42,990 bases of DNA from an uncultured Arenicella sp. (lineage in GTDB: Bacteria; Pseudomonadota; Gammaproteobacteria; Arenicellales; Arenicellaceae): NCBI GenBank assembly GCA_937974565.1, contig CALJWL010000060.1, positions 1-42,990 of the forward strand, written 5' to 3'. Below the pieces are notes generated by a model. The model saw nothing but the letters and a program-made list of their open reading frames with translations, made no database searches and had not been told where the DNA came from. Shown here piece after piece: positions 5,703 through 42,771 of this stretch; position 1 is the stretch's first letter; each line of letters starts with the position of its first letter. The position numbers were made by a program, and so were the translations under genes.

Positions 5703-6944
5703 TCAGTATGTATTTGTATTCAGCGTGCCAAAAGCGGCATTGATGGCCCCGACAAGCTCATCTTCGTTAACGACTTCTTGATCAGTAAATTTCGTTGAAT
5801 CGCGCATGGCTGGCAGCAATACGTTGTCCGCGTAGTCACAGCCGGTGAGTTGCGGGTCGTTTTGGTGAGATTTGTTGGTTTGGTCGGGTGCATGGCAGAC
5901 ACCTTTGGAATGATACTCTAATGATAGGGCGTAAGCCGGAATAAACGATTGCGCGTTAACAAAGCGACCTCGCAATGCTTTTAATATGCCCATCCCTTCA
6001 TAATCCAGATCACCCCAAAAGTACACCGGAACATCTTGACGGCCAGAAAACCACCAGTGTTCAAATTGCTCGTATTGCTCTTGAGTGGCATGGTTGATGG
6101 TCACAAATTGACTGTTGCCGGTGTGACGGATCACGTTGGCTGAAACACGGTAACCAGCGCTGTAGACTACAGCGACTTTCCCTGTTGCTTTACTGCGTTT
6201 GAGGGCTGCAACGGTACTTCGAAAACTGTCGAAATTTTCAACAAATAAAGCGGCCTCTAGCGTGATGGGTATGCTCACGGACATCATAATCGCTCGTGGC
6301 GAGATAAACTTTGCGCTATTAGGAAGTGCGTGTTCTAAAAATGCCCTGCGTTTATCAAGAAATTTAGAATCGCCACTAAAACACCGTGCGGAAACGTTTC
6401 TAAGGCTGAGTTGCAATGAGCATTGTTCAGCTTGCTTTAGTAAGTCTGCCACGCCAGCAAAACCTGCAACGATTTCTTTGGCGGTTAAATTGCCATGCTT
6501 AATGGGGGCATTGAATGCAGCGATGGCATCAAAGTGCGGTGCATAATGGTCAAGCGCTTGTTGCCATTGGGTTGAATAACCCACGTTTACGGCTCTGTTT
6601 AACCAAGCTCTTAATTGAGTTTCGCTGTTAGGATTTAACGTTAAAGTGGCGCCAAAATAAGGTTCAGCGTCTAAAGGTATGGCGCGCTTTGGTTTTAGTT
6701 TGATGGTAATGATGTTGTGTTCACGCGCCAGTTTGTTGCTAATCAGAAGCCACAATTCGTCAGGGTCGTTATTAAAATTGAACAGTTCTGGTATGCCTTT
6801 ACGAAGTGTGTTTTTTACATATAGCGTTGCGTGTTTGTTGCCGTGCTCTATTTGATCCAGCAGGTTGTGCAGAATGCGTTGTACTTGCGTATTGTCTTTG
6901 ACCCAATGTGGGGCGTTATCTGATACTGAGAATGCCTTGTTCAT
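5703..6944 (-). CDS. jetD: Wadjet nuclease subunit JetD (TOPRIM, DUF3322/DUF2220)
   Basis: A 413-aa protein, last of the four Wadjet genes. In this family JetD is the TOPRIM-type nuclease that cuts the circular DNA captured by the JetABC SMC complex. Seen: the TOPRIM glutamate in LFVENFDSF (E236), the DxD pair in YFWGDLDYEGMG (D312 and D314), and an acidic C-terminal patch VVNEDELV (about 392-399), the arrangement expected of the DUF2220 domain. The N-terminal 200 residues correspond to the DUF3322-type region that contacts the complex. The catalytic residues look intact, so it should be active. It starts 21 bp after jetC; the GST-like gene follows 8 bp after its stop. Confidence 0.88.
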   Translation of the reverse strand: MNKAFSVSDNAPHWVKDNTQVQRILHNLLDQIEHGNKHATLYVKNTLRKGIPELFNFNNDPDELWLLISNKLAREHNIITIKLKPKRAIPLDAEPYFGATLTLNPNSETQLRAWLNRAVNVGYSTQWQQALDHYAPHFDAIAAFNAPIKHGNLTAKEIVAGFAGVADLLKQAEQCSLQLSLRNVSARCFSGDSKFLDKRRAFLEHALPNSAKFISPRAIMMSVSIPITLEAALFVENFDSFRSTVAALKRSKATGKVAVVYSAGYRVSANVIRHTGNSQFVTINHATQEQYEQFEHWWFSGRQDVPVYFWGDLDYEGMGILKALRGRFVNAQSFIPAYALSLEYHSKGVCHAPDQTNKSHQNDPQLTGCDYADNVLLPAMRDSTKFTDQEVVNEDELVGAINAAFGTLNTNTY

Positions 6945-6965
6945 TGACGTATTTAGGTCACAGGC

Positions 6966-9900
6966 TTACGAGGCGTGGGTGTCGGTTTCAAAAAAGTCTT
7001 CCATAAAATCAAGCGAGGCCTGATTTCGGATTGTACGGCGGTGCTGTTGCCAAAGGTCGGCAATTTTCTCTTTATTGCACACCCGACGATCAACCAAGAC
7101 TTGAGTATTTAATTCGCCAACTTTGCCATCGATAGGGCATTTACTAAACACAACTTGATGGCTAATTAAATCCATAAATGGGCCAGACTTACTGGTTGGC
7201 ATAATAAAGATGAGTTGCAGCCCGAGCTTTTCCGTCAAATAATGGATGACTTCGCGTGAGCGGGCTTCGTCCATTTTTGAAAACGCTTCGTCCACCAAAA
7301 CCATACGACAGTGAGTGTCTCCCTCGTTAAACTTAAACGCGGATGTGATTGCTGCGCTGCGAATAATATACGCGGGTGTTTCAAGTTGGCCGCCAGAGCC
7401 AGTGCCGTATTGGCTTAACGCTATCTTTTCTTTACCCAGCGGTGTTTTGTATATTTCGTAATCGCGATAGTTTCGGTAGTCACTAATCCGTTTGAGCTCA
7501 CGTAGCGATGTGTGTTCGTCATTATCCAGTAACATTCCAAGTAGACGGTCGCGTACTTTGGTCGCATCATTGCTCAGTTCCGCTTCGAATAAGCTGCTGC
7601 CATCGCCCAAGCTGGGTAAATTGATAACTTCTTTGAAGAATGAATAGTACTCCTTGAATTCAGGCACCCAGCTTTTGTCGAATTTGTACGTTTCGCGATC
7701 AGTACCAAATTGATGTGATTCGAGTTCTTGGTTGAGAGTTTGCAGTGTTCGTTCGCCGTCGTTAATGGCGGAATAAATTGAGTGGCACAGATTGGACACA
7801 AACGCTGTGTTGAAACTCTCTTTTAAATCATTCAACATTTCGTGCTTGCCGATCAAAACGTTGTTTTTGAGTCGGTTATTGATTATGCGACTTTCCTTTA
7901 GCACTAGCACAATGTGTTTTAAGCGCTCAAAGTTGTGCAAATTCGCCACGCTTTCACCGGTGGCACGCAAATAAGCAATGCTGTCGCTTTGTTTGCATAC
8001 TTGGTTGTGGGCTATTACTGCGGTATCGATATCATGCTCTAGCTTCAAGCATTGGTTTTGATGTGCCTCTTGCTCAGGCACATAACTGTCGTTTGAATCG
8101 CCATTTTTTGCCTGCGCGGTGGCGGCGGCTTGCGATTGAGTGATGCTGTCCTGTGCATCGAAATCTGGGTAGACGGCTGGAATGCTCTCAAGAACGGTTT
8201 CTGCCGAGTCTTCTTGAGCTTGTAGGCTCTCTTGTTGGTCGCAAATCTGTTGAATCTTACTTTGGTAATTGTTCAATTTACTATTGAGTTCTCCCAGTGT
8301 TTTTTGGGCATTTTCTTGTTCTGATTTTAAGGTGTTGTATTGCTCTGTTACCTCGCTAAGTTCGTCTTCCAACGCTTCAAAATCAGATAAATCTAAAGAG
8401 TTCAGTTGATGTTGAAAGTGTTGTACTTCGCGATACAAAGACAACATTTGTGTGGCGATTTCGTTGATCTGTAAGAGGGCAATTTGATCGATGCTGCTGA
8501 CCAGTCGGTTGGCGCTTCGGGCGGCTTGCTCGGCGCTATGGCGTTTGGTTTGTAAGGTTTGGAGTTGATCTTCTTTTGCTCTTAGCGCTCGCTCTCGGGC
8601 ACCTTGTCCAAACACCAACTCAGCTTCTTCAATGTCGCAACGAAACATGCTGTAACCACCCGAGCCTAAGCCGCTTTCGGTAATCCCTCTGGCGGTGCTA
8701 CGCAGTTCATTCTCGTCGGCCACACGCCGAACATTGCCATACGACCCCTTGATGTAATATTCCGCGGTTTTGTGTTCAAAGCTCATCACTTCTAAGATCG
8801 AGCCGTTAGACGTGTTTAGTCGCGCGGCGTCTTTTTGCACTTTGGCGCCTTGGATAATTTTTGTCGCATTACGTCGGCCACTGCCAGTAAGGCGGCGTAC
8901 GATCTTGATCGCTTCAGCTTCGAACTCAGGCTCTACAATCACGGCAAACCGGTTGCCACCAATGTAGCCTTCTATTGCCATCTGCCAGCGCGGGTCTGTG
9001 ATATTGATAAAGTCACACAGGACGGTAGGCCGAGCTTGCGGACATTGATGCGTTATTGCGGTAACGGCCGTCTCCACGTAAGGGGGGTAGGCGATGCGTT
9101 GGTTTTGCAGCTGTTGAACTTCACGTTGCTTCGCTTTCGTTTGTTCAGCCAGCTTGGTCTGCGCAGCCAAACGTGTTTGAGCGATGGCAAAGGCTTTATC
9201 GCGCAACGTACGTTGATGGTTGTGTTGACCGTCGTTGCGTTGATTTAATGTTAGGTGCAACCCTTGGTGAGCGTGTTCAAATTCACGTAAGGCATCGAGT
9301 TTATGTTCAAGGTTCTCAATGCCGACCATATCCTGCGTAAACAGGGTTTGCATATCAATGCCCGAACTGTCACCGGCCTCTATTACGCGGTTGAGTGAAC
9401 GGCGTGTATCTGGGTGTTCCAACTCCGGCAGTTCCAAGGCAAGATCTGTATTTCTAATTAGGTCTTTTAGCTCTTTAGTAGCTATGTGGTTGTTGATGAG
9501 TCGCTGGTCTTGTAGGAGTAGTGGCTGAGCCTTTTCAATGAGGCGGGATTGGTTGTTCTCTATTTGTTTTTCAAGTTGATCTTTGTTTTTTAACGCGTCA
9601 ATACCCAGCCGTTTAGCTTGCAGGGTGACTAACTTTTCATGCAAGCCGCGAGTTTTATTGTTAAGGCGTTTTGAGTGTTGTTCTGTGTCCGTAATAAGGT
9701 GTTTTGTTTCATTCTCTTTTTGTTTGGTGAGTAAATAGTGTTGTTGTGCTAAACAACTTAAACGTACGCTCTCTTTGTATTCGCACACACGCCAATCAAT
9801 CCAATGTTGGGTATAGGTTTGCGCGTGATCATTGATGACGTGTAATCGGTCGACCACGCCTTTGATTTGACGTGTTTCTGCCTCCATCTCATGGATGGTT

Positions 9901-10652
9901 TTCATAAGCTCTGAGACTTGCTTTATATCGTTGCTTAAGTCTTTGGGCTCTAAAATTTCGCGTGCAACAAAGTCATTGATGCTGCGCACGGGCTTGTAAG
10001 CCATAAAGCTTGAGAAGATTTTGGCCGCATGATGTGATTCGCGTTTAGAGACTGAGACGCTTTGGCCGCGTAAAGCGCCGTAAAGCCGGTTAAGGTAGAG
10101 GCCTTTTTTGTCGTAAATTTCGACCCGGTTTTTACCAAACTGATTTTTTAAGTCTTGAGCAACGTGATCTAAGTTGGTGACCATGTTGTTCGCATAGAGC
10201 ATGTCTAGGGTGATTTCTTCGCCTGGCAGAATAAAAAAATGCAGATCACGTTGTCTGGCTTGGCGTTGTTTTCCCACCCGCTCAATCTCAGCTCTGACAC
10301 CGATCATGGCGGTGAAGGCTTGCCCGCCTTCACCGTTGGTGGGGTGAAATACGCCTGCTATGTATCCGTCGGTGGTCTGTGGCCGCGAATAGCTGCCGTC
10401 ATCGCAACCTAAAACGTAAGAAGCTAAGGTGCGCACCTGCTTACCGCCACGGCCTCTCTGGGTTGTTTCATCTTGCCCAGGGTTGTAGGTAAATAGGTTT
10501 TCATACGCGGCTGTCATCAGGGTTTGTAACGCGTCTGCCGCTGTGGTTTTACCAGAGCCATTGCCCCCTGAGAACAGGTTGATTGGGCCAAAAGCAATGT
10601 CCTGCGGCGGTATGTTACCCCAGTTAACCAAAAGAACATTTTTACAAAACAT
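6966..10652 (-). CDS. jetC: Wadjet SMC-like ATPase JetC
   Basis: A 1228-aa SMC/MukB-like motor. The Walker A motif GGNGSGKT is at residues 29-36, the ABC signature region LSQYGTGSGGQ at about 1079-1089, and Walker B MVLVDE at 1117-1122 followed by AFSKMD. Long Gln/Glu/Leu-rich stretches (about 290-530 and 690-1000) are coiled-coil arms. Between them, about 545-640, lies the hinge-like domain (ITDPRWQMAIEGYIGGNRFA). In Wadjet, JetC dimers extrude DNA loops and sense small circular DNA, handing it to JetD. The start ATG at 10652 is 4 bp after the jetB stop. The two heads and the hinge are all present, with no visible damage. Confidence 0.9.
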   Translation of the reverse strand: MFCKNVLLVNWGNIPPQDIAFGPINLFSGGNGSGKTTAADALQTLMTAAYENLFTYNPGQDETTQRGRGGKQVRTLASYVLGCDDGSYSRPQTTDGYIAGVFHPTNGEGGQAFTAMIGVRAEIERVGKQRQARQRDLHFFILPGEEITLDMLYANNMVTNLDHVAQDLKNQFGKNRVEIYDKKGLYLNRLYGALRGQSVSVSKRESHHAAKIFSSFMAYKPVRSINDFVAREILEPKDLSNDIKQVSELMKTIHEMEAETRQIKGVVDRLHVINDHAQTYTQHWIDWRVCEYKESVRLSCLAQQHYLLTKQKENETKHLITDTEQHSKRLNNKTRGLHEKLVTLQAKRLGIDALKNKDQLEKQIENNQSRLIEKAQPLLLQDQRLINNHIATKELKDLIRNTDLALELPELEHPDTRRSLNRVIEAGDSSGIDMQTLFTQDMVGIENLEHKLDALREFEHAHQGLHLTLNQRNDGQHNHQRTLRDKAFAIAQTRLAAQTKLAEQTKAKQREVQQLQNQRIAYPPYVETAVTAITHQCPQARPTVLCDFINITDPRWQMAIEGYIGGNRFAVIVEPEFEAEAIKIVRRLTGSGRRNATKIIQGAKVQKDAARLNTSNGSILEVMSFEHKTAEYYIKGSYGNVRRVADENELRSTARGITESGLGSGGYSMFRCDIEEAELVFGQGARERALRAKEDQLQTLQTKRHSAEQAARSANRLVSSIDQIALLQINEIATQMLSLYREVQHFQHQLNSLDLSDFEALEDELSEVTEQYNTLKSEQENAQKTLGELNSKLNNYQSKIQQICDQQESLQAQEDSAETVLESIPAVYPDFDAQDSITQSQAAATAQAKNGDSNDSYVPEQEAHQNQCLKLEHDIDTAVIAHNQVCKQSDSIAYLRATGESVANLHNFERLKHIVLVLKESRIINNRLKNNVLIGKHEMLNDLKESFNTAFVSNLCHSIYSAINDGERTLQTLNQELESHQFGTDRETYKFDKSWVPEFKEYYSFFKEVINLPSLGDGSSLFEAELSNDATKVRDRLLGMLLDNDEHTSLRELKRISDYRNYRDYEIYKTPLGKEKIALSQYGTGSGGQLETPAYIIRSAAITSAFKFNEGDTHCRMVLVDEAFSKMDEARSREVIHYLTEKLGLQLIFIMPTSKSGPFMDLISHQVVFSKCPIDGKVGELNTQVLVDRRVCNKEKIADLWQQHRRTIRNQASLDFMEDFFETDTHAS

Positions 10653-10656
10653 GGTG

Positions 10657-11427
10657 TTACTCGCTTGAGGTCGCTGTGGTGTTCGTTTCGTTTGCCGTCT
10701 CCGTCTCCGTCTCAGGGGTTACGTCGTGATCTGGTTTGTTACTTAAACCATCGTTTTCCGTGCTTATAGTTTCGGCTTTTGGCGGGTAAAGCTGATCCAG
10801 CATGGATTGGGTGACGAACGATGTAATGCTCGGTTCAATACGCAACCAATTGTCTTGGTCGTCGCTGGTGTTTAAGGGGGTGTCGCTGTTTAACTTGATC
10901 AACCGCAATTGTCGCAGTTGTTTAAAGATAGCGTTGCGTTCCAGCTGAGTTGCTGGCAAACCTTGTTTAAGCAGATTGTTCATCGCAATACTCAGTTGTT
11001 CCAGTGGAATAAGCACGCCGCCTTGTTCATCGACTTTTCCTTCGCGTAGTGCTTTTTCGTACTCGACTCTTAACACTAAAATAACCGCTATGGCTTGAGG
11101 GCTGGGCTTGCTGCGCAAACCGTGTTGGAATGGGCCGTCGTCTTGATGATCGTTATCCGCCAAGCCTGGCACCTCGGCGCTGGGAGGAAAGACACGAACA
11201 AAGCGAAATGTGCGGTCATGCAACAGTTTCACATGGATGACGGCTAAGTAGTCTTCAACTAAGTCGGCGCATTGCAGGTAACGATCGTACAGCGCGGCTT
11301 CTATTTGGCTTTCATCGCGATTAAGAACGCCGTAATCTAACAAACGAATGAGTAATTCAGAGAACTCTTTAGAGCTAATGGTTAGCGTGCTTAAGCGCTC
11401 ATCAATAACGTTGGCAATGGGGGTCAT
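10657..11427 (-). CDS. jetB: Wadjet kite-like subunit JetB (DUF4194)
   Basis: A 256-aa protein corresponding to the MukE/kite-type subunit of the Wadjet complex (DUF4194). It bridges the JetA kleisin and the JetC heads. Seen: a mostly helical N-domain (TISSKEFSELLIRLLDYGVL), VEYEKALREGKVDEQGG in the middle and a winged-helix-like segment LERNAIFKQLRQLRLIKL near 165-182. The last 40 residues are low-complexity, rich in Thr, Glu, Asn and Ser, and probably disordered. Part of this tail is encoded by a CCGTCT hexamer repeat. It starts at ATG 11427, 29 bp after jetA, and is followed after 4 bp by jetC. Confidence 0.82.
   Translation of the reverse strand: MTPIANVIDERLSTLTISSKEFSELLIRLLDYGVLNRDESQIEAALYDRYLQCADLVEDYLAVIHVKLLHDRTFRFVRVFPPSAEVPGLADNDHQDDGPFQHGLRSKPSPQAIAVILVLRVEYEKALREGKVDEQGGVLIPLEQLSIAMNNLLKQGLPATQLERNAIFKQLRQLRLIKLNSDTPLNTSDDQDNWLRIEPSITSFVTQSMLDQLYPPKAETISTENDGLSNKPDHDVTPETETETANETNTTATSSE
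10695..10713. repeat. CCGTCT hexamer repeat (x3) inside jetB
   Basis: Three tandem CCGTCT copies plus a final C, encoding an alternating Thr-Glu run in the JetB C-terminal tail. A six-base unit keeps the frame when copies are gained or lost, so only the length of the acidic tail would vary. Confidence 0.6.
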
Positions 11428-11456
11428 GTTGTTGGGCTAAGTGGACGTGTATTCAT

Positions 11457-12932
11457 TTAGACAGGGTCGGTGCGGGCCATCGCCTGAGTGTCGATAAGCT
11501 CAATTTCGTATTCGTCGAATTGTTGGTAATACTCGTTGCTGGCCGTTTGCTCTAGCGGCCTGATTCGAAATTTTAAGTCTGAGCTTAAATTGTTGCCAGC
11601 GCCAATCTCAATGGCATGAGCGGCGGCGATTAATGTCGGTGCGTCTTTAATGGCTAATTCGCGCGTGTTTAGCTTATGACCGCCTTTGAGTGTTTCGATT
11701 ACGTAGTCACGAATGCCTTTATTATTGAGTACAAAGGCTTGATCTAACATTGCTTGAACCATCAGCTCACGCTGAGCTTCTTTATTCGGTGCTTTGATTT
11801 TTTCTACGCGGTTATCAACTGCGCTACGAGCTTTGCGCTCGATCAATTTCACTTGTTTGGGGTCGATTAGGTGTAGCTTTATAGAGGCAACGGTCTCTGC
11901 GGCACGTTCAAAACGTTGATTCATCTCTTGCGCTGATAAGTCTGCCAGTTCGCGGCACACTTCCACTAAATCAGAATCATTCTGTGTGGTTAAAAAGCTC
12001 ATCTGTCTGATGATGATATCGGCTCGTTTTGTGAAACCGTGAAGGGCGCTGCGCAAGGCGGGTAACATGGTGTCTGCCGCGTGTTGCATACGGCGTTCTA
12101 TCATGTCTAGAATAAACATCAAGTAAGACTGATGTTCTTCACAAAGCTCAGGCGCTAAACGGCGTAATTCACGCTCAGCAAGGGCTTTAATTTCTTTGGG
12201 CTTTCTTCGAATCGACCTAATGCGCTTATTAATGTCTTCACGGTGTTTTTCCACTGAGTCTGCCGATAAACGCACTTGTATGTCTGGTTGAAAACGTTTT
12301 TCCATGTAGTCAAAGAACTGATCTGCGGCCCGTTGCACCAGTTGTTGTGATTCCATTTCTTGCACTAAAGCACGCTTTTTTTCCTCCAGTTCCGAGACTA
12401 CGTCGGTGAAGTCTGTAACGATGCGCTCTGAGTAATCAAACGCGTCTAACAAGTCATACACCTCACCGCGATTAGAAAACGCTTCCAGAGCGTTTAGTGT
12501 GTTACGAGTGTTGCGATGACGAGTGCGAATCTGCTTACTATCGGACTCAAGCAGCATTTGAGAAAACACTCGACCTGTGCGACTGAATGGGTAAGTGGAT
12601 TGCAGTAGACCGGGATCTACTTGACGTTCAATCCAACCGAATTCTATGAGCTGCTTTAAAATTACGCTTGCGTGTTCTCGCGGATTTTTAAAACGTTCCG
12701 CATTCGAGTCTATGAGTTCTGGCGTAACCTCATCCAGGCTTGGGACGTCACCGATCTGTATTAACGCCTCCTCAAAAATTTCGATTACTTGATCACGCTG
12801 CAGTGCATGCCCATAGTCTGCGCTTGACCCAAATTGTCGAGTGTAAAGTAAGCATAGGCACTGGCATATATGTTCACGATATTTAGTCGTTAGTGGCTTG
12901 AAAAAATGCAGTTTGGTGCTTTCGAAAAACAT
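11457..12932 (-). CDS. jetA: Wadjet kleisin-like subunit JetA
   Basis: A 491-aa protein, first gene of the jetABCD operon. JetA is the kleisin/MukF-like subunit that links the JetC heads and JetB. The opening (FESTKLHFFKPLTTKYRE) followed by helical repeats fits the JetA family of the non-type-I Wadjet systems rather than the DUF3375 JetA of type I, but I cannot fix type II or III by eye. Long charged helices lie at 130-260 and 300-390. The start at 12932 is fixed by an in-frame TAA two codons upstream. There is no Shine-Dalgarno sequence, and a TATACT box ends only 6 bp before the ATG, so the message may be leaderless. Confidence 0.83.
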   Translation of the reverse strand: MFFESTKLHFFKPLTTKYREHICQCLCLLYTRQFGSSADYGHALQRDQVIEIFEEALIQIGDVPSLDEVTPELIDSNAERFKNPREHASVILKQLIEFGWIERQVDPGLLQSTYPFSRTGRVFSQMLLESDSKQIRTRHRNTRNTLNALEAFSNRGEVYDLLDAFDYSERIVTDFTDVVSELEEKKRALVQEMESQQLVQRAADQFFDYMEKRFQPDIQVRLSADSVEKHREDINKRIRSIRRKPKEIKALAERELRRLAPELCEEHQSYLMFILDMIERRMQHAADTMLPALRSALHGFTKRADIIIRQMSFLTTQNDSDLVEVCRELADLSAQEMNQRFERAAETVASIKLHLIDPKQVKLIERKARSAVDNRVEKIKAPNKEAQRELMVQAMLDQAFVLNNKGIRDYVIETLKGGHKLNTRELAIKDAPTLIAAAHAIEIGAGNNLSSDLKFRIRPLEQTASNEYYQQFDEYEIELIDTQAMARTDPV

Positions 12933-13914: not shown

Positions 13915-14733
13915 TTACAGCGTTTTATCATGCTCAATCACGGCGAACGCAGAGTGGTTATGAATTGATTCAAAGTTCTCTGCGTGTACGTAATAACGAG
14001 TAATGTGGTCGTTACTGTCAAACTCATTGGCCACATCTCGTACCACATCTTCAACAAACTTAGGGTTGTTATAGGCTTGCTCTGTGATGAACTTCTCATC
14101 GGGTCGCTTAAGAATCGCAAACAGTTCAGCGCTGGCTTGTGCTTCAACGGATTTAATAATGTCATCCAACCAGAGTTTACTTGAACAGTTAACGCCTACG
14201 GTTAAGTGCGAGCGTTGATTGTGGGCCCCATACTCGGAAATTTTCTTCGAACACGGACATAAACTTTTCACTGGAACGGTGATCTCTAATGTGGATGCCA
14301 AGTGACCCTGTTCAAGCTGACCAACCAAATTGATTTGATAATCCATCAAACTTTTAACACCCGATACCGGTGCGGTCTTTTCCATGAAATAGGTGAATTG
14401 CAACTCGATATAGCCTGATTCGGCCTCTAAGCGCTCCACCATTGCGCCAAGCATTTTGTGAAAATGCTTGGCGGAAATAATGGTTTCAGACTCATTTAGC
14501 ATTTGCAGAAAGCGTGACATATGAGTGCCTTTTTGATCATGCGGAAGACTGACTGACATTGAAAATGTTGCGATACTGGGTGACTTGCCGCCATCTCGAT
14601 TAAGCACCGTAATGGGGTGTTGTATATCTTTGATGCCCACTCGGTTAATCGGAATCTGACGGGTATCTAAGCTACCTTGAACGTCTTCCATTGCTGTTGA
14701 ATGGCTTGATGGCTGTTTTAACGACTGGGTCAT
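13915..14733 (-). CDS. folE2: GTP cyclohydrolase FolE2 (type IB)
   Basis: A 272-aa enzyme of the COG1469 family. It converts GTP to 7,8-dihydroneopterin triphosphate, the first step of folate (and queuosine) precursor synthesis, without needing the zinc used by FolE. Seen: LPHDQKGTHMSRF at about 63-75 with H71, and VKSLCPCSKKISEYGAHNQR at about 155-174, where C159 or C161 is the expected catalytic/metal Cys. It lies 46 bp after dxs as the last gene of the xseB-ispA-dxs unit. In many bacteria folE2 is induced by zinc starvation, which fits the zinc island at 34-42 kb. A half Zur-like motif (TAATGTTAT) lies in the dxs-folE2 gap, but no full box. Confidence 0.92.
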   Translation of the reverse strand: MTQSLKQPSSHSTAMEDVQGSLDTRQIPINRVGIKDIQHPITVLNRDGGKSPSIATFSMSVSLPHDQKGTHMSRFLQMLNESETIISAKHFHKMLGAMVERLEAESGYIELQFTYFMEKTAPVSGVKSLMDYQINLVGQLEQGHLASTLEITVPVKSLCPCSKKISEYGAHNQRSHLTVGVNCSSKLWLDDIIKSVEAQASAELFAILKRPDEKFITEQAYNNPKFVEDVVRDVANEFDSNDHITRYYVHAENFESIHNHSAFAVIEHDKTL

Positions 14734-33905: not shown

Positions 33906-35102
33906 TCAAACCGACTTTGCCTGATTGTAAGCCTGAAACGCAGGTAACGACGCAACGAACGCGGTTGCTAAAAGAATGGAGGTTGCGATAAGGGCATTGC
34001 TGCCGGTAAGTAAGTTGGTGCCAAGATGTAAGCCAAATTGAGTGGAGATGCTTTTTTGCGCAATAACCAGAGCGCTATAGAGCAGTGCGCCTCCGCCTAA
34101 AATGCTGGCTAAACTAATAAGCAGCGCTTCGATTTGAAACAAAACAAAAAGAAATATTGGCTGGGCTCCAATAATTCGCAATAAATACGTTTCTTTTTTA
34201 CGCTCTCTGATCGACGCTGCCAACATGGCCGCTAAGCCCAATAGTGCGGAAGCGAACACAAGCCACGATATCAATCCTAATGTGCCCTCAACAATTGACA
34301 TTGTTCGCCAAAGTTCGGATAAGGCCACTCCCGGTAAGATGGCCATGAGTGGTTCGCTATCCAAGTTATTGATTTCTCGCTGTAAGCGAAAGGTGGCGAT
34401 GCGAGATTTAAGACCGACCATAAATGCCGTGATACTGGTGGGTTGAAGCACGTTGGCTTCTGCGCTCGGTGTTTGGTGAATCGCCTCAATGCCTTCTAAC
34501 TTTACATGCACGGTTTGATCGACCGGTGTGCCCGTTGGCGCAAGAATACCCGCCACAGTAAACGGGTGCTGGTCGTGCGTTGTAAAACTGGTGTCGCCAA
34601 TTCCGTGCGATACAATAATAGGGTTGCCGATTTTATAATTTAAATCAGCCGCTACCTTGGCCCCCAATACCACGTCATACCGACTGTTGAATTCAGTGCC
34701 TTGCACTATATCGAGTTTTTCCTTTTTTGCGTAACGGTAGTGTTCAAAATACGCGTTACTTGTGCCAAGCACGCGAAACCCTTTGTGGGAATCGCCTAAC
34801 GAGATTGGGATTGTCCAAGCAACGTTTGGGTCAGTGGCAATGCTTTGATAAGAACGCCAACTAATGTTATTCACCGGTGACCCCATGCGAAACACCGAAT
34901 ACAACAGCAGGTTTAGCTGGCCACTTTTTGCACCTACAATTAAGTCCACACCTGAAATTGTGCTGGAAAAGCTTTCTTTGGCTTCTTTGCGAATGTGTTC
35001 CACGCCGAAGAGCACGAAGATACTGATTATCATCGCTATGCAGGTCAAAGTCACGGACCCTTTTCTATCCAACAGACTCTTTGTTGCTAATTTTATTAAC
35101 AT
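33906..35102 (-). CDS. ABC transporter permease, FtsX/MacB type
   Basis: A 398-aa permease with one N-terminal membrane helix (about 16-38), a large periplasmic domain (SFSSTISGVDLIVGAKSGQL onward), and three C-terminal helices (about 265-395), the FtsX/MacB-LolCE topology. Such transporters move lipids, peptides or signals by mechanotransmission rather than metal ions directly. I start at ATG 35102, 4 bp after the ATPase stop; an upstream in-frame extension would overlap it. With the ATPase and the divergent DUF3299/DUF2796 genes it forms the gene set described as the ZrgABCDE zinc-acquisition system in Vibrio. Zinc-responsive control through the shared Zur-like box is inferred. Confidence 0.85.
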   Translation of the reverse strand: MLIKLATKSLLDRKGSVTLTCIAMIISIFVLFGVEHIRKEAKESFSSTISGVDLIVGAKSGQLNLLLYSVFRMGSPVNNISWRSYQSIATDPNVAWTIPISLGDSHKGFRVLGTSNAYFEHYRYAKKEKLDIVQGTEFNSRYDVVLGAKVAADLNYKIGNPIIVSHGIGDTSFTTHDQHPFTVAGILAPTGTPVDQTVHVKLEGIEAIHQTPSAEANVLQPTSITAFMVGLKSRIATFRLQREINNLDSEPLMAILPGVALSELWRTMSIVEGTLGLISWLVFASALLGLAAMLAASIRERKKETYLLRIIGAQPIFLFVLFQIEALLISLASILGGGALLYSALVIAQKSISTQFGLHLGTNLLTGSNALIATSILLATAFVASLPAFQAYNQAKSV

Positions 35103-35106
35103 GGGT

Positions 35107-35805
35107 TTACCCCCCAGCCTTGTTAATCTCTGACATTGAGTCAATTCGATGGAAATAGTGGCTTAATGACAAATCATGGCTAACGAACACCAATGTCATA
35201 TTATGAGCCTCTGCCATTGTCATCAACATTGACATAAACGTATCTCGATTTGTCTGATCTAACGAGGATGTGGGTTCATCAGCAATGAGAAGGGCTGGTT
35301 TATTGGCTATTGCTCTGGCAATTGCCACGCGCTGTTGTTGACCAACACTTAACTGTTCAACAGCCTTGTGCCAATGTGCTTGAGTGATATTTAATTTAAG
35401 TAGCAGGGATTCGATGTCGATTTTGTTACGATCAGCCTTAATGAGCGCACGCCCGAAATGGTTGGCGAGATGAATGTTCTCAACGGCGGATAGGTAAGGA
35501 ATGAGATTAAAACTTTGTGCGACATAGCCAAGCTCGGTGGCACGGAATCGATCTCGTTGCTTGTCTGACATGTTTTCTAAGTGGTGTTCGGCTATGGAAA
35601 TAGCGCCGCTGTTAGCAGTGAGAAGCCCACTTAAAATTTTCAATAGAGTAGACTTTCCACTGCCTGAGCTACCAACAACGAACACGTGTTCACCGGCTGA
35701 TACTGTCCACGAGGGGATATCAAGTACACGAAGGCTCGGATCCTCTGAATAGGAAAATATAACGTGTTCTAAATTGATGAGTGGGGGGTTAGTGATAATG
35801 CTCAA
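35107..35805 (-). CDS. ABC transporter ATP-binding protein (LolD/MacB-like)
   Basis: A 232-aa nucleotide-binding subunit of the LolD/MacB subclass. Walker A VGSSGSGKST is at about residues 41-50, signature LSVGQQQRVAIARAI, Walker B LLIADEPTSSLD and the switch His in LVFVSHDLS. It pairs with the FtsX-type permease encoded 4 bp downstream. The start is TTG at 35805 (no earlier in-frame ATG fits); only a weak AGAG sequence precedes it. The Zur-like box at 35833-35855 lies 28 bp upstream, so transcription should be blocked when zinc is plentiful (inference). Confidence 0.9.
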   Translation of the reverse strand: MSIITNPPLINLEHVIFSYSEDPSLRVLDIPSWTVSAGEHVFVVGSSGSGKSTLLKILSGLLTANSGAISIAEHHLENMSDKQRDRFRATELGYVAQSFNLIPYLSAVENIHLANHFGRALIKADRNKIDIESLLLKLNITQAHWHKAVEQLSVGQQQRVAIARAIANKPALLIADEPTSSLDQTNRDTFMSMLMTMAEAHNMTLVFVSHDLSLSHYFHRIDSMSEINKAGG

Positions 35806-35832: not shown

Positions 35833-35855
35833 TTTGTGTAATACTATAACATTTC
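35833..35855. promoter_or_regulatory. Zur-like box in the divergent zinc promoter
   Basis: The right half TATAACATTTC is a perfect match to the half-site of the gammaproteobacterial Zur palindrome (GAAATGTTATA-N-TATAACATTTC). The left half, tttgtgtaata, keeps 6-7 of 11 positions. It lies 28 bp before the ATPase start and 74 bp before the DUF3299 start, in a position to control both. A possible plus-strand promoter (TTGTGT, 17 bp, TAGTAT at 35858-35863) overlaps it. Confidence 0.75.
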
Positions 35856-35928
35856 AATAGTATATCAACGTCGTATGATGTCAAAATCAACATACTACCG
35901 GCTAGCACAATAGCCGGTGAGAGTAACA

Positions 35929-36513
35929 ATGAACAGGCCATTATTTTTTGTATTCACTTTGCTGACAGTTGTGTTATTGGGAGCCTGTAGCTCGGGTATG
36001 GATGACTCTGTTAGAGCAACGTATCAAGAATTAAGCTGGGTCGATTTAAAGCCTCAAGAAGAGCTTGCCGAACAAGAGCCTGCGGCTGATCAGAACTCAG
36101 AGAGGCAATCACTGGAAATAGTAGACGACTGGTATAGTAATCAATACGCTCAAATACCGGGTTTGGCCAACGGTTATGTGGGGACACCGCCGCAGGCTTA
36201 TTCAGCGGGCGTTGTTGCTGAACTGGATGGTCAAAGCGTTCGTGTGCCTGGTTTTATCGTGCCGGTGGAATTTGAACCAGGTAACTTGGTGACGGAATTT
36301 TTTCTTGTTCCTTACTTTGGTGCCTGTTTTCATAAGCCTCCCCCTCCTTCTAATCAAACCATTTACGTTAAAAGCGAAAAACCGGTGGCGTTTGAGAGCA
36401 TCTATGATCCAGTTTGGGTGATGGGAATTATAGAAACAAAGCAGATCAGCAATGATATTGCGGTGGCGGCGTACACAATGAACTTTCATTTCATTGAAGC
36501 GTTTGTGGAGTAA
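35929..36513 (+). CDS. DUF3299 lipoprotein of the zinc island
   Basis: A 194-aa predicted lipoprotein. The signal peptide ends in a lipobox LLGAC with the lipidated Cys at residue 20. The DUF3299 domain occupies about 80-194: AYSAGVVAELDGQSVRVPGF, EFFLVPYFGACFHKPPPPSN, and the final YTMNFHFIEAF. Function is not established biochemically; family members sit beside DUF2796/ZrgA and FtsX-type ABC genes in zinc-repressed loci. I choose ATG 35929 (GAGAG upstream) over a GTG at 35917. It is followed after 3 bp by the DUF2796 gene. Confidence 0.85.
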   Translation: MNRPLFFVFTLLTVVLLGACSSGMDDSVRATYQELSWVDLKPQEELAEQEPAADQNSERQSLEIVDDWYSNQYAQIPGLANGYVGTPPQAYSAGVVAELDGQSVRVPGFIVPVEFEPGNLVTEFFLVPYFGACFHKPPPPSNQTIYVKSEKPVAFESIYDPVWVMGIIETKQISNDIAVAAYTMNFHFIEAFVE

Positions 36514-36516
36514 GTG

Positions 36517-37224
36517 ATGGCTTTTTGGATTACTATTAAATGGCTGGAATTTTTAGCGGTGGTGTGTGATAAAACGGTTGGCCTGTTTGAAGGAAAAACC
36601 ATTTTGGTGTTTGGCTTCATTATAAGCCAAACACCGCTTCTTAACTCAGCCATGGCACGTGAGTCTCATGGACCTCACATTCACGGTATTGCCCATATGG
36701 CCCTAGCGTCAGAAGGTAAGGCACTTGCAATCCAATTTGAATCACCGGCTGTTAATGTGTTGGGTTTTGAGACGCAAGCAACCACCCAAGCGCAAACAGA
36801 AGCCGTGGAAAGAATTCGGCTTCTGTTAAGTACGCCAACTAATGTGCTTTCCTTTAATGATAAACAAAGCCTCTCGCATTGCACTGTTGGTTCCGTCACG
36901 GTTGACGTGGCTGGCGAGGCAAGAGAAACGGCCGACACCGACTCGAAAGAACATGGTGAAGAATACAACCATGTTCATCAAAAACATCACGATCACACTG
37001 ACCTTGATTCCAGCCATGGTGATGACGAAGGTCATAGCGAAGTGACGGCTTTATATGAGTTTGCTTGCGATGACAAGGAACCGCTGCGCACCGTTGCCGT
37101 GACGTTATTTGAACATTTTCCTGGCATAGAAAAAATTCAGGTAAATTGGGTGACTGATATCGAACAGGGAGAAGCAATATTGACCCAACAATCCCCAATC
37201 ATTACGTTAGCCAGCCCTCGTTGA
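36517..37224 (+). CDS. zrgA: DUF2796 His-rich zinc-binding protein (ZrgA-like)
   Basis: A 235-aa exported protein of the DUF2796/ZrgA family, a periplasmic zinc carrier. The mature N-terminus has HGPHIHGIAHMALA, a family hallmark. A His/Asp loop at about 146-178 (HVHQKHHDHTDLD, SSHGDDEGH) should bind zinc. The ATG at 36517 has GGAG six bases upstream, but gives an unusually long leader of about 46 residues with two hydrophobic parts. A later start at about 36602-36607 (TTG or GTG, with AAGGA upstream) would give a normal signal peptide. A perfect 12-bp hairpin covers that later start. It is the second plus-strand gene of the Zur-like unit. Confidence 0.85.
   Translation: MAFWITIKWLEFLAVVCDKTVGLFEGKTILVFGFIISQTPLLNSAMARESHGPHIHGIAHMALASEGKALAIQFESPAVNVLGFETQATTQAQTEAVERIRLLLSTPTNVLSFNDKQSLSHCTVGSVTVDVAGEARETADTDSKEHGEEYNHVHQKHHDHTDLDSSHGDDEGHSEVTALYEFACDDKEPLRTVAVTLFEHFPGIEKIQVNWVTDIEQGEAILTQQSPIITLASPR
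36606..36635. repeat. Perfect 12-bp inverted repeat inside zrgA
   Basis: GGTGTTTGGCTT (36606-36617), loop cattat, AAGCCAAACACC (36624-36635). It lies in the leader-peptide coding region of the DUF2796 gene. As RNA it would be a strong stem. There is no T-tract behind it. Confidence 0.85.
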
Positions 37225-37439
37225 TGATGAACCCCAGACAACACAAGTATGATCGATTGCTGACCACTGAGGGCTTTAGTCTGTGTGTTTTGGGTTGGTC
37301 GTTTTGGTTGAACGTGGGTAAAAAAGGAGTTGTCGAAGAAGATGTTTGCTGATGTTGTGGTATGTATTGCAGCGCTGGGGCGCTATTGCGATTGTGGTTT
37401 GTCGCATCCATTGAATCGTTACGACTGCCGTTAAGTGCC

Positions 37440-37853
37440 ATGAAACGTGCTTTTTTTAAAAATATCGAGTGCTACGCTGATGCCTCTGAGCTTGAACTTG
37501 ATGAGGTGCTTGACCAGCTTGCGTTTGACGTTCGCGGTTTGTTGCCTGTTATTACTCAAGATGCCGATACGAACGACGTGTTGATGTTGGCGTGGATGAA
37601 TCGAACGGCATTAACTGAAACACTGATCTCTGGCCACGTTACTTATTGGTCTCGCAGTCGAAATCAGCTCTGGGTAAAAGGAGAAACCAGTGGTCATACT
37701 CAAGAGTTGGTGTCGTTGTCAATTGATTGCGATGGCGATGCGATTTTATGCAAAGTAAAGCAGCAAGGCCCAGCGTGCCACACTGGTCGCAGACATTGCT
37801 TTTACCTTCGTGTTCACCGTGAACATCGAAAAATTTACGTGTCTGAAAAGTAA
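37440..37853 (+). CDS. hisI: Phosphoribosyl-AMP cyclohydrolase paralogue (HisI-like)
   Basis: A 137-aa HisI-type enzyme that hydrolyses phosphoribosyl-AMP in histidine synthesis. Seen: [20 protein letters not shown], the Trp/Ser stretch [20 protein letters not shown] (THY here reads VTY), the Mg-binding DCDGDAIL, and the Cys ligands in [13 protein letters not shown]. HisIE-type fusion is absent. It is not with other his genes but within the zinc island, where a second HisI copy (HisI2) is known from COG0523-linked zinc loci. All metal ligands that I can identify are still present, so zinc independence is not shown by sequence. I start at ATG 37440; the 215-bp gap upstream shows no Zur box. 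Confidence 0.88.
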   Translation: [137 protein letters not shown]

Positions 37854-37889
37854 AGCGACACTTAACCTGCTATTTTAAATACGAGTCAT

Positions 37890-38933
37890 ATGACCCTAAT
37901 ATCCGGTGTACCAACGAACATCATTACTGGCTTTTTAGGCGTTGGTAAAACGTCGACTATATTGCACCTGCTTAAAAGTAAACCGAAGGAGGAGCGTTGG
38001 GCCATATTAGTTAATGAATTTGGCGAAATTGGCATCGACGGGGCGTTGTATGAAGGGCAATACTCACAAGAGCAGGGGGTGTATATTCGCGAGGTGCCGG
38101 GTGGGTGCATGTGTTGCACCGCCGGTTTGCCTATGCAAGTGGCGTTGTCGCAATTACTCAAGCGGGCTAAGCCAGACCGTTTACTGATTGAACCAACTGG
38201 CTTGGGTCATCCCACCGAAGTATTGCAAACATTAAACAGTGAGCATTTTCGCGGGGTCCTCACGATAGAAAAAATCGTAACGCTCATAGACGCAAGATCG
38301 TTGTCAGATCAACGTTACGTTGACCATGAAACCTTTCAAGAGCAGATTGCCATCGCCGATGTGATTGTTAGTAATAAACAAGATCTGTGCAGTGCGAATG
38401 ATAAGGCATTGTTACAAAGCTACTTGAATGAGCGCTCTTTGAGTGACGCAACGCTTGTGTTTACTCAACATGGCGTTATTGAGACCTCATTGCTTCAAGG
38501 ACCTACGTCAATGGTTTCTTCAAACTCGGCTGATGTTCATTTAAACACTGCTTTAGTCACACAGGCGTTAGATGCCGGAATACCAGAGTGTGGTTATCTT
38601 AGCGCCGTTAATCAAAAGCAGGGGTTTCATAGCATCGGTTGGCGTTTCACATCACGCTTTCAGTTTGATCGAAATAAACTGTTTGCCTTTTTAAGCGGCA
38701 TTGACGCCAAGAGAGTAAAAGCCGTATTTATGACGAGCAGTGGCAGTTTTGGTTACAACCTAACTCAAGACGCCCTTAGCGAATTTCCCCTAGAGCCAAT
38801 ACAAGAAAGTAAAATTGAAATCATTGCGCACGAGCTAAACCCAGAATGGGAGCCCGGCTTATTCACCTGTATTAGCGATCAAAGTCACCTTGACCACACA
38901 GCGCGTGGTGAACAAAACGACTCCCGTGCCTAG
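37890..38933 (+). CDS. COG0523 (CobW/YeiR-like) GTPase metallochaperone
   Basis: A 347-aa G3E GTPase. Walker A GFLGVGKTS starts at residue 14, the metal-binding CxCC is C73, C75, C76 in GGCMCCTAGLPM, and Walker B-like LLIEPTGLGHP follows. The opening PTNIITGFLGVGKTSTILHL and the GGCMCC-xx-GLPMQV stretch match the YeiR subgroup, which binds zinc. The C-terminal CobW domain begins about 230. No long His tail is present. It probably delivers zinc to enzymes under zinc shortage. It starts 36 bp after hisI and precedes the DUF1826 gene by 45 bp, in the same plus-strand unit. Confidence 0.9.
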   Translation: MTLISGVPTNIITGFLGVGKTSTILHLLKSKPKEERWAILVNEFGEIGIDGALYEGQYSQEQGVYIREVPGGCMCCTAGLPMQVALSQLLKRAKPDRLLIEPTGLGHPTEVLQTLNSEHFRGVLTIEKIVTLIDARSLSDQRYVDHETFQEQIAIADVIVSNKQDLCSANDKALLQSYLNERSLSDATLVFTQHGVIETSLLQGPTSMVSSNSADVHLNTALVTQALDAGIPECGYLSAVNQKQGFHSIGWRFTSRFQFDRNKLFAFLSGIDAKRVKAVFMTSSGSFGYNLTQDALSEFPLEPIQESKIEIIAHELNPEWEPGLFTCISDQSHLDHTARGEQNDSRA

Positions 38934-38978
38934 AACCAAGAATCCAGAAGTCCCTCTACAAACATAGCCGTTTAAATC

Positions 38979-39646
38979 ATGAATAACCCTGTTAATCACG
39001 TTTACGCTGAGCAACCTGATCGTCACGTTACAAGGCGTTCAAGTCAATCTCATGTTGCCGATGTGTTGGCAGACATCTACGAAGATGACGTCAATATTGC
39101 GATATGGGAGCGGGCCCTAACACTTGAATTGTGCAACGCCGCCCAGAGCCTACTTGAGTCAAGTCATGCGTTTCGAATTTCAACGTCGGTGACACCAACA
39201 GAGGCCGCAGACAGTCTTTATGAGGCCATGCACAAGCGCAACTCATCAGCGACGACATTGCTGAAGCAGTGACTATGTTTTGCCTCTTATTTGATCTTAA
39301 GCGCGTTGGCCTAAGGCTTGCCACATTGGATCGAGCCATGTGCCCCAAATTTCACGTTGACCGAGTGCCTTGTCGCTTGGTCGCAACGTACAGTGGCATT
39401 GCCACGCAGTGGTTGCCTCATCACGCCGTTAGACGTGAAAGACTGGGGGTTGGCAGTCAAGGTAAAACCGATGAAGAGTCGGTGCTTTATCGAAACCCAA
39501 ATGATATTCAACAACTTAAAGCTGGCGATATTGCGCTGTTAAAAGGGGAGTCGTGGATAGGGAATGAGGGGGCCGGTTTAGTGCATCGTTCGCCTAATGT
39601 AACCAATGAAAGCAAACGCTTGTTGTTAACGTTAGATTTCAATTAA
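38979..39646 (+). pseudogene. DUF1826 protein, frameshifted
   Basis: Two overlapping frames together make one DUF1826 protein. The first (38979-39272) gives the N-terminal 97 codons. The second (in full from about 39225, annotated ATG 39269) gives AQLISDDIAEAVTMFCLLF and MCPKFHVDRVPCRLVATYSG, the diagnostic core. The frame changes by -1 (a base seems to be missing) between about 39225 and 39240: frame 2 has a TGA just before GGC CAT, and frame 1 runs to a TGA at 39270. No slippery heptamer is seen there, so this looks like a disabling indel or a sequence error. DUF1826 genes are regular members of zinc-limitation loci; the molecular role is unknown. Confidence 0.8.
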
Positions 39647-40970: not shown

Positions 40971-41293
40971 GTTGAATTTATTGAAGCGTGTATTGAGGGG
41001 GGTAAGTTTACTGTCGTAATGTTAATGGAAACCCAGTGCTTGTTGGTAATTGACGTTTATATCAACACAGTGTCAAGCTTGAATTATTGAAGCACCTGTC
41101 TTTGGCATTGGGGCGTTTATAATAAACGGCTTGAAGGCCTCTATGAAAAATATGAGTCTAGTAAGCAGCATTGACACTTTGGGTGGTTGTGACTTGAGTT
41201 ATTCAATTCTCGTTAAAAGACGCACTTTAAATATGTTATGTAATGTTATAACATAACTTTAAATTAATCCATGGTCTAAATAAACAGCCTATT
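40971..41293. other. Divergent intergenic region with the second Zur-like box
   Basis: About 320 bp without a gene. Seen: a Zur-like box at 41240-41262. I see no other clear element; promoters of the EEP gene and of the GTPase gene should lie here. Confidence 0.5.
41240..41262 (+). promoter_or_regulatory. Zur-like box of the second COG0523 gene
   Basis: The box starts GTAATGTTATAACATAACTT. The left half keeps 10 of 11 bases of GAAATGTTATA and the right half most of TATAACATTTC. TGTTATAACA at its centre is a perfect palindrome. It lies 31 bp before the ATG at 41294. Confidence 0.82.
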
Positions 41294-42499
41294 ATGTTAC
41301 AAGAGAAACTTCCGGTTACCGTCCTTTCGGGTTTTTTGGGGGCTGGAAAAACAACCGTTTTAAGCCACATTCTCAATAACCGTGAAGGGAAGAAGGTTGC
41401 TGTCATTGTCAATGATATGAGTGAAATCAACATTGATGCTGCAATTATTCAAAATGAGGTATCCCTGAACAGAGGCGAAGAAAAATTAGTTGAAATGAGC
41501 AATGGCTGCATTTGTTGTACTTTGTGAGAAGACCTATTAGTGGAAATAAATAAGTTAGCCAAAGATGGGCGCTTTGATTATCTGGTTATTGAATCTACGG
41601 GCATCTCTGAGCCTTTGCCCGTTGCTGAGACGTTTACTTTTGAAGATGAATCTGGCGTTTCTCTGGCAGATGTTGCTGATTTGGATACCATGGTTACCGT
41701 AGTGGACGCAGTGAATTTTCTGAAAGATTATGAGGAAGCAACGTTTTTACAAGAAACAGGCGAGTCTTTGGGTGAGGGCGATGAACGAAGTGTCGCTGAC
41801 CTATTGATAGACCAAGTGGAGTTTGCCGACGTTGTTTTGATCAGTAAAACCGATTTAGCCAGCCAGAGTGACATAAAAAAGCTGACCGCAATCCTTAAAA
41901 CACTGAATACACGAGCCCGTATTATCTCCATCACACAAGGCAACGTGGCTATTGACCATGTGGTTAATACACAATTATTTGACTTTGAACGAGCGCAACA
42001 GGCGCCTGGATGGCTGAAGGAAATGCGTGGAGAACACATTCCTGAAACGGAAGAATATGGCATCAGTAGCTTTAGTTATAAGGCACGAAAGCCCTTTCAC
42101 CCAGAAAAGTTTCATAATTTCCTTCACAATACTGAAGCATACGGTAAGTTGATTCGCTCTAAAGGGTATTTTTGGTTGGCGTCACGCCCAGAATTTGCAG
42201 GTCAATGTAGTCAAGCAGGAGGCATTGCTCGGTATGGTTTCGGTGGCATGTTTTGGAAGGCGGTTCCAAAACATAACTGGCCTACCGACGAAGAGTATTT
42301 ACTTTCAATCATGGAACAGTGGGAAGAGCCTTTTGGTGATATGCGCCAAGAGTTAGTTTTTATAGGCCAAGGTCTAAAAAAGGGCGAGATAACTGATGCA
42401 CTTGATCAATGCTTGCTGAGTAACGATGAGTTATTGCGCGGGAAGGCGTATTGGCTTGAATTAGAAGACCCATTTCCGGTTTGGGAGAACACTCACTGA
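41294..42499 (+). pseudogene. COG0523 GTPase (ZigA-like) with in-frame TGA at codon 78
   Basis: A CobW-family metallochaperone of about 401 codons. Walker [11 protein letters not shown] is at residues 12-21, then [11 protein letters not shown], and the CxCC motif SNGCICCTL (69-77). Codon 78 is TGA at 41525-41527, and the same frame then continues EDLLVEINKLAKDG, which in relatives follows CTL-R-EDLL. A CGA Arg codon has therefore become TGA by one transition. The remainder (41528-42499) looks fully conserved, with LVIESTGISEPLPVAETF and the C-terminal CobW domain. Without readthrough only a 77-aa stub is made; a GTG at 41540 could start a useless C-terminal part. Zur-like box upstream; small partner gene downstream. 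Confidence 0.88.
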
Positions 42500-42536: not shown

Positions 42537-42555
42537 GCGCATGAGATCATTAAAT

Positions 42556-42771
42556 ATGAAAGCAGCAATTATTCCCGAAAACTACGAACAATGGCAACAT
42601 TGCATTGTTGTCGAATGCGGTTTGGCGTTGACGAAACCCTTTATTGAACAGCGTATTATCGCATTGGAAAACAGTGGCGATCACTATACCCAACAATTTG
42701 TTAAACGTTATGGGGACTCGCATCATCAACGAGTGCTTCATTGGTTTAGAAAAGCAGCGGAACAGCTCTAG
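42556..42771 (+). CDS. Small conserved partner of the zinc-regulated GTPase, 71 aa
   Basis: A small soluble protein starting MKAAIIPENYEQWQHCIVVE. I recognise this type of protein from positions just downstream of zinc-repressed COG0523 GTPases, but it has no assigned function. Cys15, Cys20 (QHCIVVECG) and several His near the C-terminus (HYTQQFVKRYGDSHHQRVLH) could bind metal. I choose ATG 42556, where relatives begin; an in-frame ATG at 42541 adds five residues. It is separated from the GTPase stop by 56 bp containing a hairpin. It is expected to be expressed with the GTPase from the Zur-like promoter. Role as GTPase partner is an inference. Confidence 0.7.
   Translation: MKAAIIPENYEQWQHCIVVECGLALTKPFIEQRIIALENSGDHYTQQFVKRYGDSHHQRVLHWFRKAAEQL

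Follow-up and report, generated by a model that had tools for sequence, protein, structure and literature searches.

ZigA, a COG0523 protein (NCBIfam NF038288) represented by that of Acinetobacter baumannii, is the closest described relative of the protein considered here, and its loss lowers the fitness of A. baumannii in zinc deficiency (PMC11834433). DUF1826, a domain often encoded near such proteins, is named in the legend of a COG0523 cluster figure (PMC2770081), and a DUF1826 gene is among those identified by Zur RNA-Seq in Francisella (PMC5786701). Comparison of Francisella tularensis Schu S4 with F. novicida indicates that some Zur-regulated genes have been lost, zupT by a premature stop, while others have been kept (PMC5786701). 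Over-expression of another COG0523 protein, E. coli YeiR, raises EDTA tolerance and its deletion lowers it, and YeiR supports growth under zinc chelation (PMC10763504).

The window analysed here is a stretch of 42,990 nucleotides from an uncultured Arenicella sp. (contig CALJWL010000060.1, assembly GCA_937974565.1). Near its end lies a gene whose two pieces match the ZigA model and jointly span it. Like ZigA, it has a Zur-like box upstream; many of its relatives also have a DUF1826 neighbour. Unlike ZigA, the window gene is interrupted by a stop at codon 78, and its pieces fall singly below the cut-off of the model. A recent loss-of-function (nonsense) mutation in zigA, which encodes a zinc metallochaperone GTPase of the COG0523 family and follows a Zur-like box, is the likely explanation, and the pseudogenisation is probably real and of an ordinary kind. 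The features of the locus are as follows.

41239 to 41258, no strand: overlapping Zur-like palindromes upstream of zigA, each with 1 mismatch to TGTTATANNATAACA on its better strand
41294 to 41527, plus strand: zigA upstream piece, 77 aa, with the start of the GTPase domain, GAGKT and CICC; ends at TGA
41525 to 41527, plus strand: in-frame TGA, codon 78 of zigA; Arg in all 85 ZigA rows compared
41540 to 42499, plus strand: zigA downstream piece, 319 aa, with the rest of the GTPase domain and the CobW_C domain
42541 to 42771, plus strand: small conserved ORF downstream of zigA, intact; its start may be the ATG at 42556

Translation of the plus-strand frame 41294-42499 reveals a single internal TGA, with the frame open on both sides of it up to the natural stop at 42497-42499, in agreement with the preliminary description. 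That description placed the TGA immediately after CxCC; because CICC-T-L precedes it, the stop in fact lies two codons past the motif. The upstream piece covers positions 1-65 of the cobW profile (Pfam) and 1-73 of NF038288, while the downstream piece, which opens at a GTG 12 nt past the TGA and has neither P-loop nor CxCC, covers positions 79-390 of NF038288. Because the model is matched in these two consecutive parts, the two ORFs are parts of one interrupted zigA. Specifically, the pieces score 144.5 and 514.6 bits and together span the model, each alone staying below a cut-off of 600 bits that was set for the unbroken protein; the intact homologue in genome G006 scores 701.2 bits. Taken by itself, the downstream ORF shares 79% identity with the G006 protein, which rules out chance resemblance. 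The P-loop GAGKT and the metal motif CICC are both present, in the upstream piece only, and the CobW_C domain, encoded beyond the TGA, is not on the P-loop chain. The window zigA thus has the mark of a pseudogene, a frame disrupted relative to intact relatives, and the assembly yielded no other strong match to ZigA. The small ORF at 42541-42771 has no Pfam or NCBIfam match; homologues occur at loci L004/L120, L051 and L053, with the L053 copy on the opposite strand.

The column of the stop is covered by 92 of the 96 loci with a hit, and these carry 87 Arg, 4 Gln, 1 Glu and no stop. All 85 rows used as ZigA have Arg; the other seven are paralogues (2 Arg, 4 Gln, 1 Glu). One codon of the column read CCT, probably from a minus-strand row left unturned, which leaves the residue counts unchanged. 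G006 (locus L002), the nearest relative on the tree, has CGA and forms the sister row of the window zigA (86 rows, support 90/85). This agrees with the earlier proposal that the expected residue is Arg, CGA having become TGA by one transition. A sample of 321 genomes of the class yielded 32 matches to the G006 ZigA at E 1e-100 or better, those of the window and G006 among them; the window match alone contains an internal stop. A relative stopping at the same place, which the preliminary description had suggested looking for, was found neither among the 92 loci covering the column nor among the 32 strong matches. One-stop flags in the zigA of loci L055 and L066 are terminal stops, since they fall within the last three aligned residues, after the conserved DPFP motif.

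A downstream frame preserved with little decay might also be expected if the TGA were read through or recoded, by a near-cognate tRNA, a suppressor tRNA or selenocysteine insertion, perhaps under zinc stress, so that full-length ZigA is still made. NCBIfam does hold a distant CobW-related selenoprotein family, to which the match is weak. We regard decoding of this kind as very improbable: the position is Arg and not Cys in ZigA relatives, none of those compared has a stop there, and the TGA is followed by G and not C. C after TGA is the leaky context. The search for the selenocysteine machinery covered the assembly, which is 97.87% complete, and found no SelB (best match 102.9 bits, cut-off 242.25) and no tRNA-Sec over the cut-off (best match 44.8 against 47, a tRNA-Ser); selenocysteine insertion in zigA is rejected on these grounds. 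A suppressor tRNA is disfavoured because no UCA anticodon occurs among the tRNAs around the best 8 of 14 tRNA-Sec-like matches. The interruption looks like ordinary gene loss, not a new decoding trick.

A second group of zinc-linked genes lies upstream in the window. From 35917 to 39646, on one strand and behind a Zur-like palindrome, are genes for DUF3299, ZrgA, HisI, a second COG0523 protein and DUF1826.

33906 to 35805, minus strand: LolD/MacB-like ABC transporter pair, divergent from zrgA
35837 to 35851, no strand: Zur-like palindrome with 1 mismatch; the divergent ABC transporter genes lie on one side of it and the DUF3299-zrgA genes on the other
35917 to 36513, plus strand: DUF3299 protein, first gene of a presumed operon ending in DUF1826
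36514 to 37224, plus strand: ZrgA family zinc uptake protein (profile match)
37362 to 37853, plus strand: phosphoribosyl-AMP cyclohydrolase, HisI (profile match)
37890 to 38933, plus strand: second COG0523 GTPase, intact, in the zrgA operon
38979 to 39272, plus strand: N-terminal piece of the DUF1826 gene, 97 aa, profile positions 4-58; frameshifted
39269 to 39646, plus strand: C-terminal piece of the DUF1826 gene, -1 frame, profile positions 88-202 by ORF

Boxes were scored against TGTTATANNATAACA, which we take to be the Zur consensus. The palindromes at 35837-35851 and 41239-41258 are the only one-mismatch sites in the window, which bears out the near-consensus box claimed before zigA; looser matches, with up to 3 mismatches, show no excess (17 against 16.5 expected). 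Of 85 zigA loci, 32 have in the 250 nt upstream a box that departs from the consensus at no more than one position, compared with about 1.5% of random 250-nt stretches from the same loci. At 36 of the 85 the best upstream box has at least 4 mismatches, G006 being among them with 5. Judged from its box, the window zigA is probably under Zur control. A second FUR-family gene in the assembly has Zur as its best NCBIfam match (84.9 bits over a 118-residue domain, cut-off 167). No ZnuA-family match was found in the assembly, although the Zur-like regulator and ZrgA are present, and zinc uptake in this genome may depend on the ZrgA system. The window also contains folE2 (13915-14733); the best Zur-like site in the 250 nt before it carries 5 mismatches. 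folE2 encodes a Zn-independent GTP cyclohydrolase and is a common Zur target.

The second COG0523 gene, at 37890-38933, has an open frame, as the preliminary description said. Its NCBIfam matches within the family are all below cut-off, and "YeiR-like" is only an earlier label that invites comparison with E. coli YeiR (PMC10763504). In having more than one COG0523 gene, the window resembles genomes described with a second, Zur-associated paralogue (PMC2770081).

DUF1826 carries a second lesion. The 202-position model (PF08856) is split over two frames, positions 4-58 in the first and 67-202 in the second, and no single ORF in the window spans it; unbroken copies are present in G006, G011, G024 and G038. 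The C-terminal frame is 73% identical to that of G006 and agrees with 57 homologues at all 28 columns where their conservation reaches 90% or more; 32 of the 57 likewise show no deviation. DUF1826 is found at 55 of 85 zigA loci, in 49 shortly or directly downstream on the same strand; several of the 30 loci without it have short flanks, including that of G006, whose DUF1826 sits on a different contig from its zigA. The two genes are not adjacent in the window. The claim that the partner gene of zigA is intact therefore holds for the small ORF at 42541 and fails for the usual neighbour, DUF1826, which is frameshifted at 38979-39646. A programmed -1 frameshift was considered and rejected: inspection by eye of the sequence from the frame-2 stop at about 39222 to the frame-0 stop at 39272 found no slippery heptamer of the form X XXY YYZ, and the frameshift is therefore read as a mutation. 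The size of the indel cannot be fixed because the length of the linker varies among relatives. The two pieces overlap as GTGA at 39269-39272, the GTG of the second over the TGA of the first. Overlaps of this form are typical of translational coupling; here the overlap is probably a chance result of the frameshift.

Both lesions, like their context and conservation, are directly observed, and neither gene has decayed much further. ZigA has 176 near-invariant columns (at least 95% conserved in 85 full-length rows), and the window departs from them at three, namely the stop, V85I and W305C. Apart from the stop, 2 of 175 columns deviate, and V85I is common to some relatives. Under the same scoring, with gaps counted, 65 of the 85 relatives deviate at 0 to 2 columns and 20 at 3 or more. 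Changes between the window and G006 zigA number 73, 40 and 225 at codon positions 1, 2 and 3, so that third positions still dominate, and the end branch of the window gene on the tree is 0.25, compared with 0.17 for G006 and 0.22 for G011. Tests on zigA and DUF1826 give no clear sign of relaxed selection and no clear excess of unusual substitutions. Any loss of zigA is therefore recent on this scale. The near-absence of further decay fits a very recent loss, and fits equally well two consensus errors or a product still in use. Very recent inactivation, as first proposed, is the best reading: the Zur-like palindromes are kept, only those two columns deviate and no relative compared stops at this position.

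Among 18 genomes of the genus, strong ZigA matches occur in the window, G006, G011, G009 (a 125-aa piece cut at a contig end) and G013, where zigA is a relic, interrupted by two in-frame stops and a break in the frame, with its 5' part cut off by the contig end. DUF1826 is found in the window (frameshifted), in G006 and G011 and as a short contig-end piece in G009; G013 has no match. ZrgA is present in the window, G006, G011, G013 and G017. Of the 11 genus genomes searched for the second COG0523 gene, the window, G006, G011 and G013 carry it in an open frame; G009 has no match. A TGA in the G011 copy, considered as a parallel case, was rejected and taken as the ordinary gene end, because the alignment of query residues 4-329 contains no internal stop. 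Zinc-linked zigA is thus broken in two of the five genus carriers, the window and G013. Neither has lost ZrgA or the second COG0523 GTPase, but the same is true of the two carriers whose zigA is intact, and two broken cases are few. The earlier suggestion of redundancy among zinc chaperones gains slight support, from G013 having likewise a broken zigA and an intact second COG0523 gene.

Of the 32 strong matches in the class, two are clearly partial, those of G312 and G224. The G312 match is open over its length. In G224, a single-contig genome, zigA is frameshifted near G006 residue 205, so that it lies in two overlapping frames, and has a 14-residue gap; since G224 joins the window, at least 2 of the 32 are broken. 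At the G224 locus (L153, 2239-5327), an unbroken DUF1826 of 230 codons lies about 1.2 kb from the frameshifted zigA.

These cases allow the tentative proposal, which we rate as possible and somewhat unlikely, that ZigA and DUF1826 form one functional unit that is dispensable, and tends to be lost jointly, where the ZrgA genes and the second COG0523 GTPase are kept. The window and G013 would then be two independent cases, the double loss in the window being nearly at the point of inactivation, and G224 would represent an earlier step with zigA alone broken. The window, with both genes broken, and G013, with a zigA relic and no DUF1826 match, favour joint loss, whereas G224, where DUF1826 is open, contradicts a strict rule. 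We infer that the loss of zigA and that of DUF1826 may be linked, and keep this as a possibility, not a result, because in G224 the broken zigA stands beside an open DUF1826. The available parts of the open-licence papers PMC2770081 and PMC5786701 contain no mention of such joint loss. The window resembles the decay in Francisella in that part of the Zur-regulated genes are lost and part kept, with a premature stop involved; it differs in that the COG0523 gene is the one kept in Francisella, while the window has a broken ZigA and keeps another COG0523 paralogue (PMC5786701).

The two-frame zigA of G224, broken at another place, also bears on whether the pieces of zigA and of DUF1826 could be translationally coupled and reassemble into working proteins, as the GTG at 41540, 12 nt past the zigA stop, and the GTGA overlap in DUF1826 might suggest. 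Restart codons so near a stop are, however, common by chance, and G224, the only other two-frame zigA of the 32, lacks 14 alignment residues and itself looks broken. Because the break in the window lies within the GTPase domain, leaving the P-loop and the remainder on separate chains, a working split ZigA is hardly credible.

The main rival to a recent nonsense mutation is an error in the sequencing or assembly consensus, in which case the living organism has an intact zigA and perhaps an intact DUF1826. The genome is a draft of 72 contigs, judged here from the assembled consensus, both lesions lie less than 4 kb from the contig end, and zigA and DUF1826 show no decay beyond a single lesion each. 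Such an error would, however, have to strike twice independently, each time in a zinc-linked gene, and spare every other assessable ORF among those scanned in the window. No other split gene was found among the 37 proteins or pieces scanned, four of which lack a family match and are not judgeable (ORFs of at least 120 aa were taken at 1-35900). The background of internal stops is low as well, 41 of 42 ABC_tran matches being clean, and zigA is broken in other genomes too (G013, G224). Consensus error is accordingly rather unlikely. The one ABC_tran match with stops, G000:C31:3272-3556, is a relic that contains two TAA codons and overlaps a match in a different frame; it is likely a further pseudogene of the same genome. 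Elsewhere in the window, a Wadjet-type cluster (5703-12932, minus strand) encodes JetA, DUF4194, an SbcC/SMC-like protein and JetD_C in order (Pfam) in four open frames; the DUF4194 protein is, by its position, presumably JetB-like.

Under the preferred reading, a nonsense mutation in zigA, one transition would have turned a conserved Arg codon into TGA. During zinc starvation, zigA would be derepressed and would yield a 77-residue stub with the P-loop and CxCC, lacking the rest of the GTPase and the C-terminal domain, while a product restarted at the GTG 12 nt past the stop would have neither P-loop nor CxCC. Neither piece would be expected to work as a GTPase metallochaperone, and, judging from the reading frame, ZigA activity is probably lost. 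With DUF1826 also frameshifted, ZrgA, HisI, the second COG0523 GTPase and the Zur-like regulator would remain.

A single premature stop is nothing unusual. The case gains some value because one genome shows damage both to the zinc chaperone gene and to its frequent companion DUF1826, a protein of unknown function, and because G013, another species of the genus, combines a broken zigA with an intact second COG0523 GTPase and lacks a DUF1826 match. The pattern of damage to zigA and DUF1826 makes it possible to test whether the two proteins work together, and whether ZigA can be replaced by another COG0523 GTPase.
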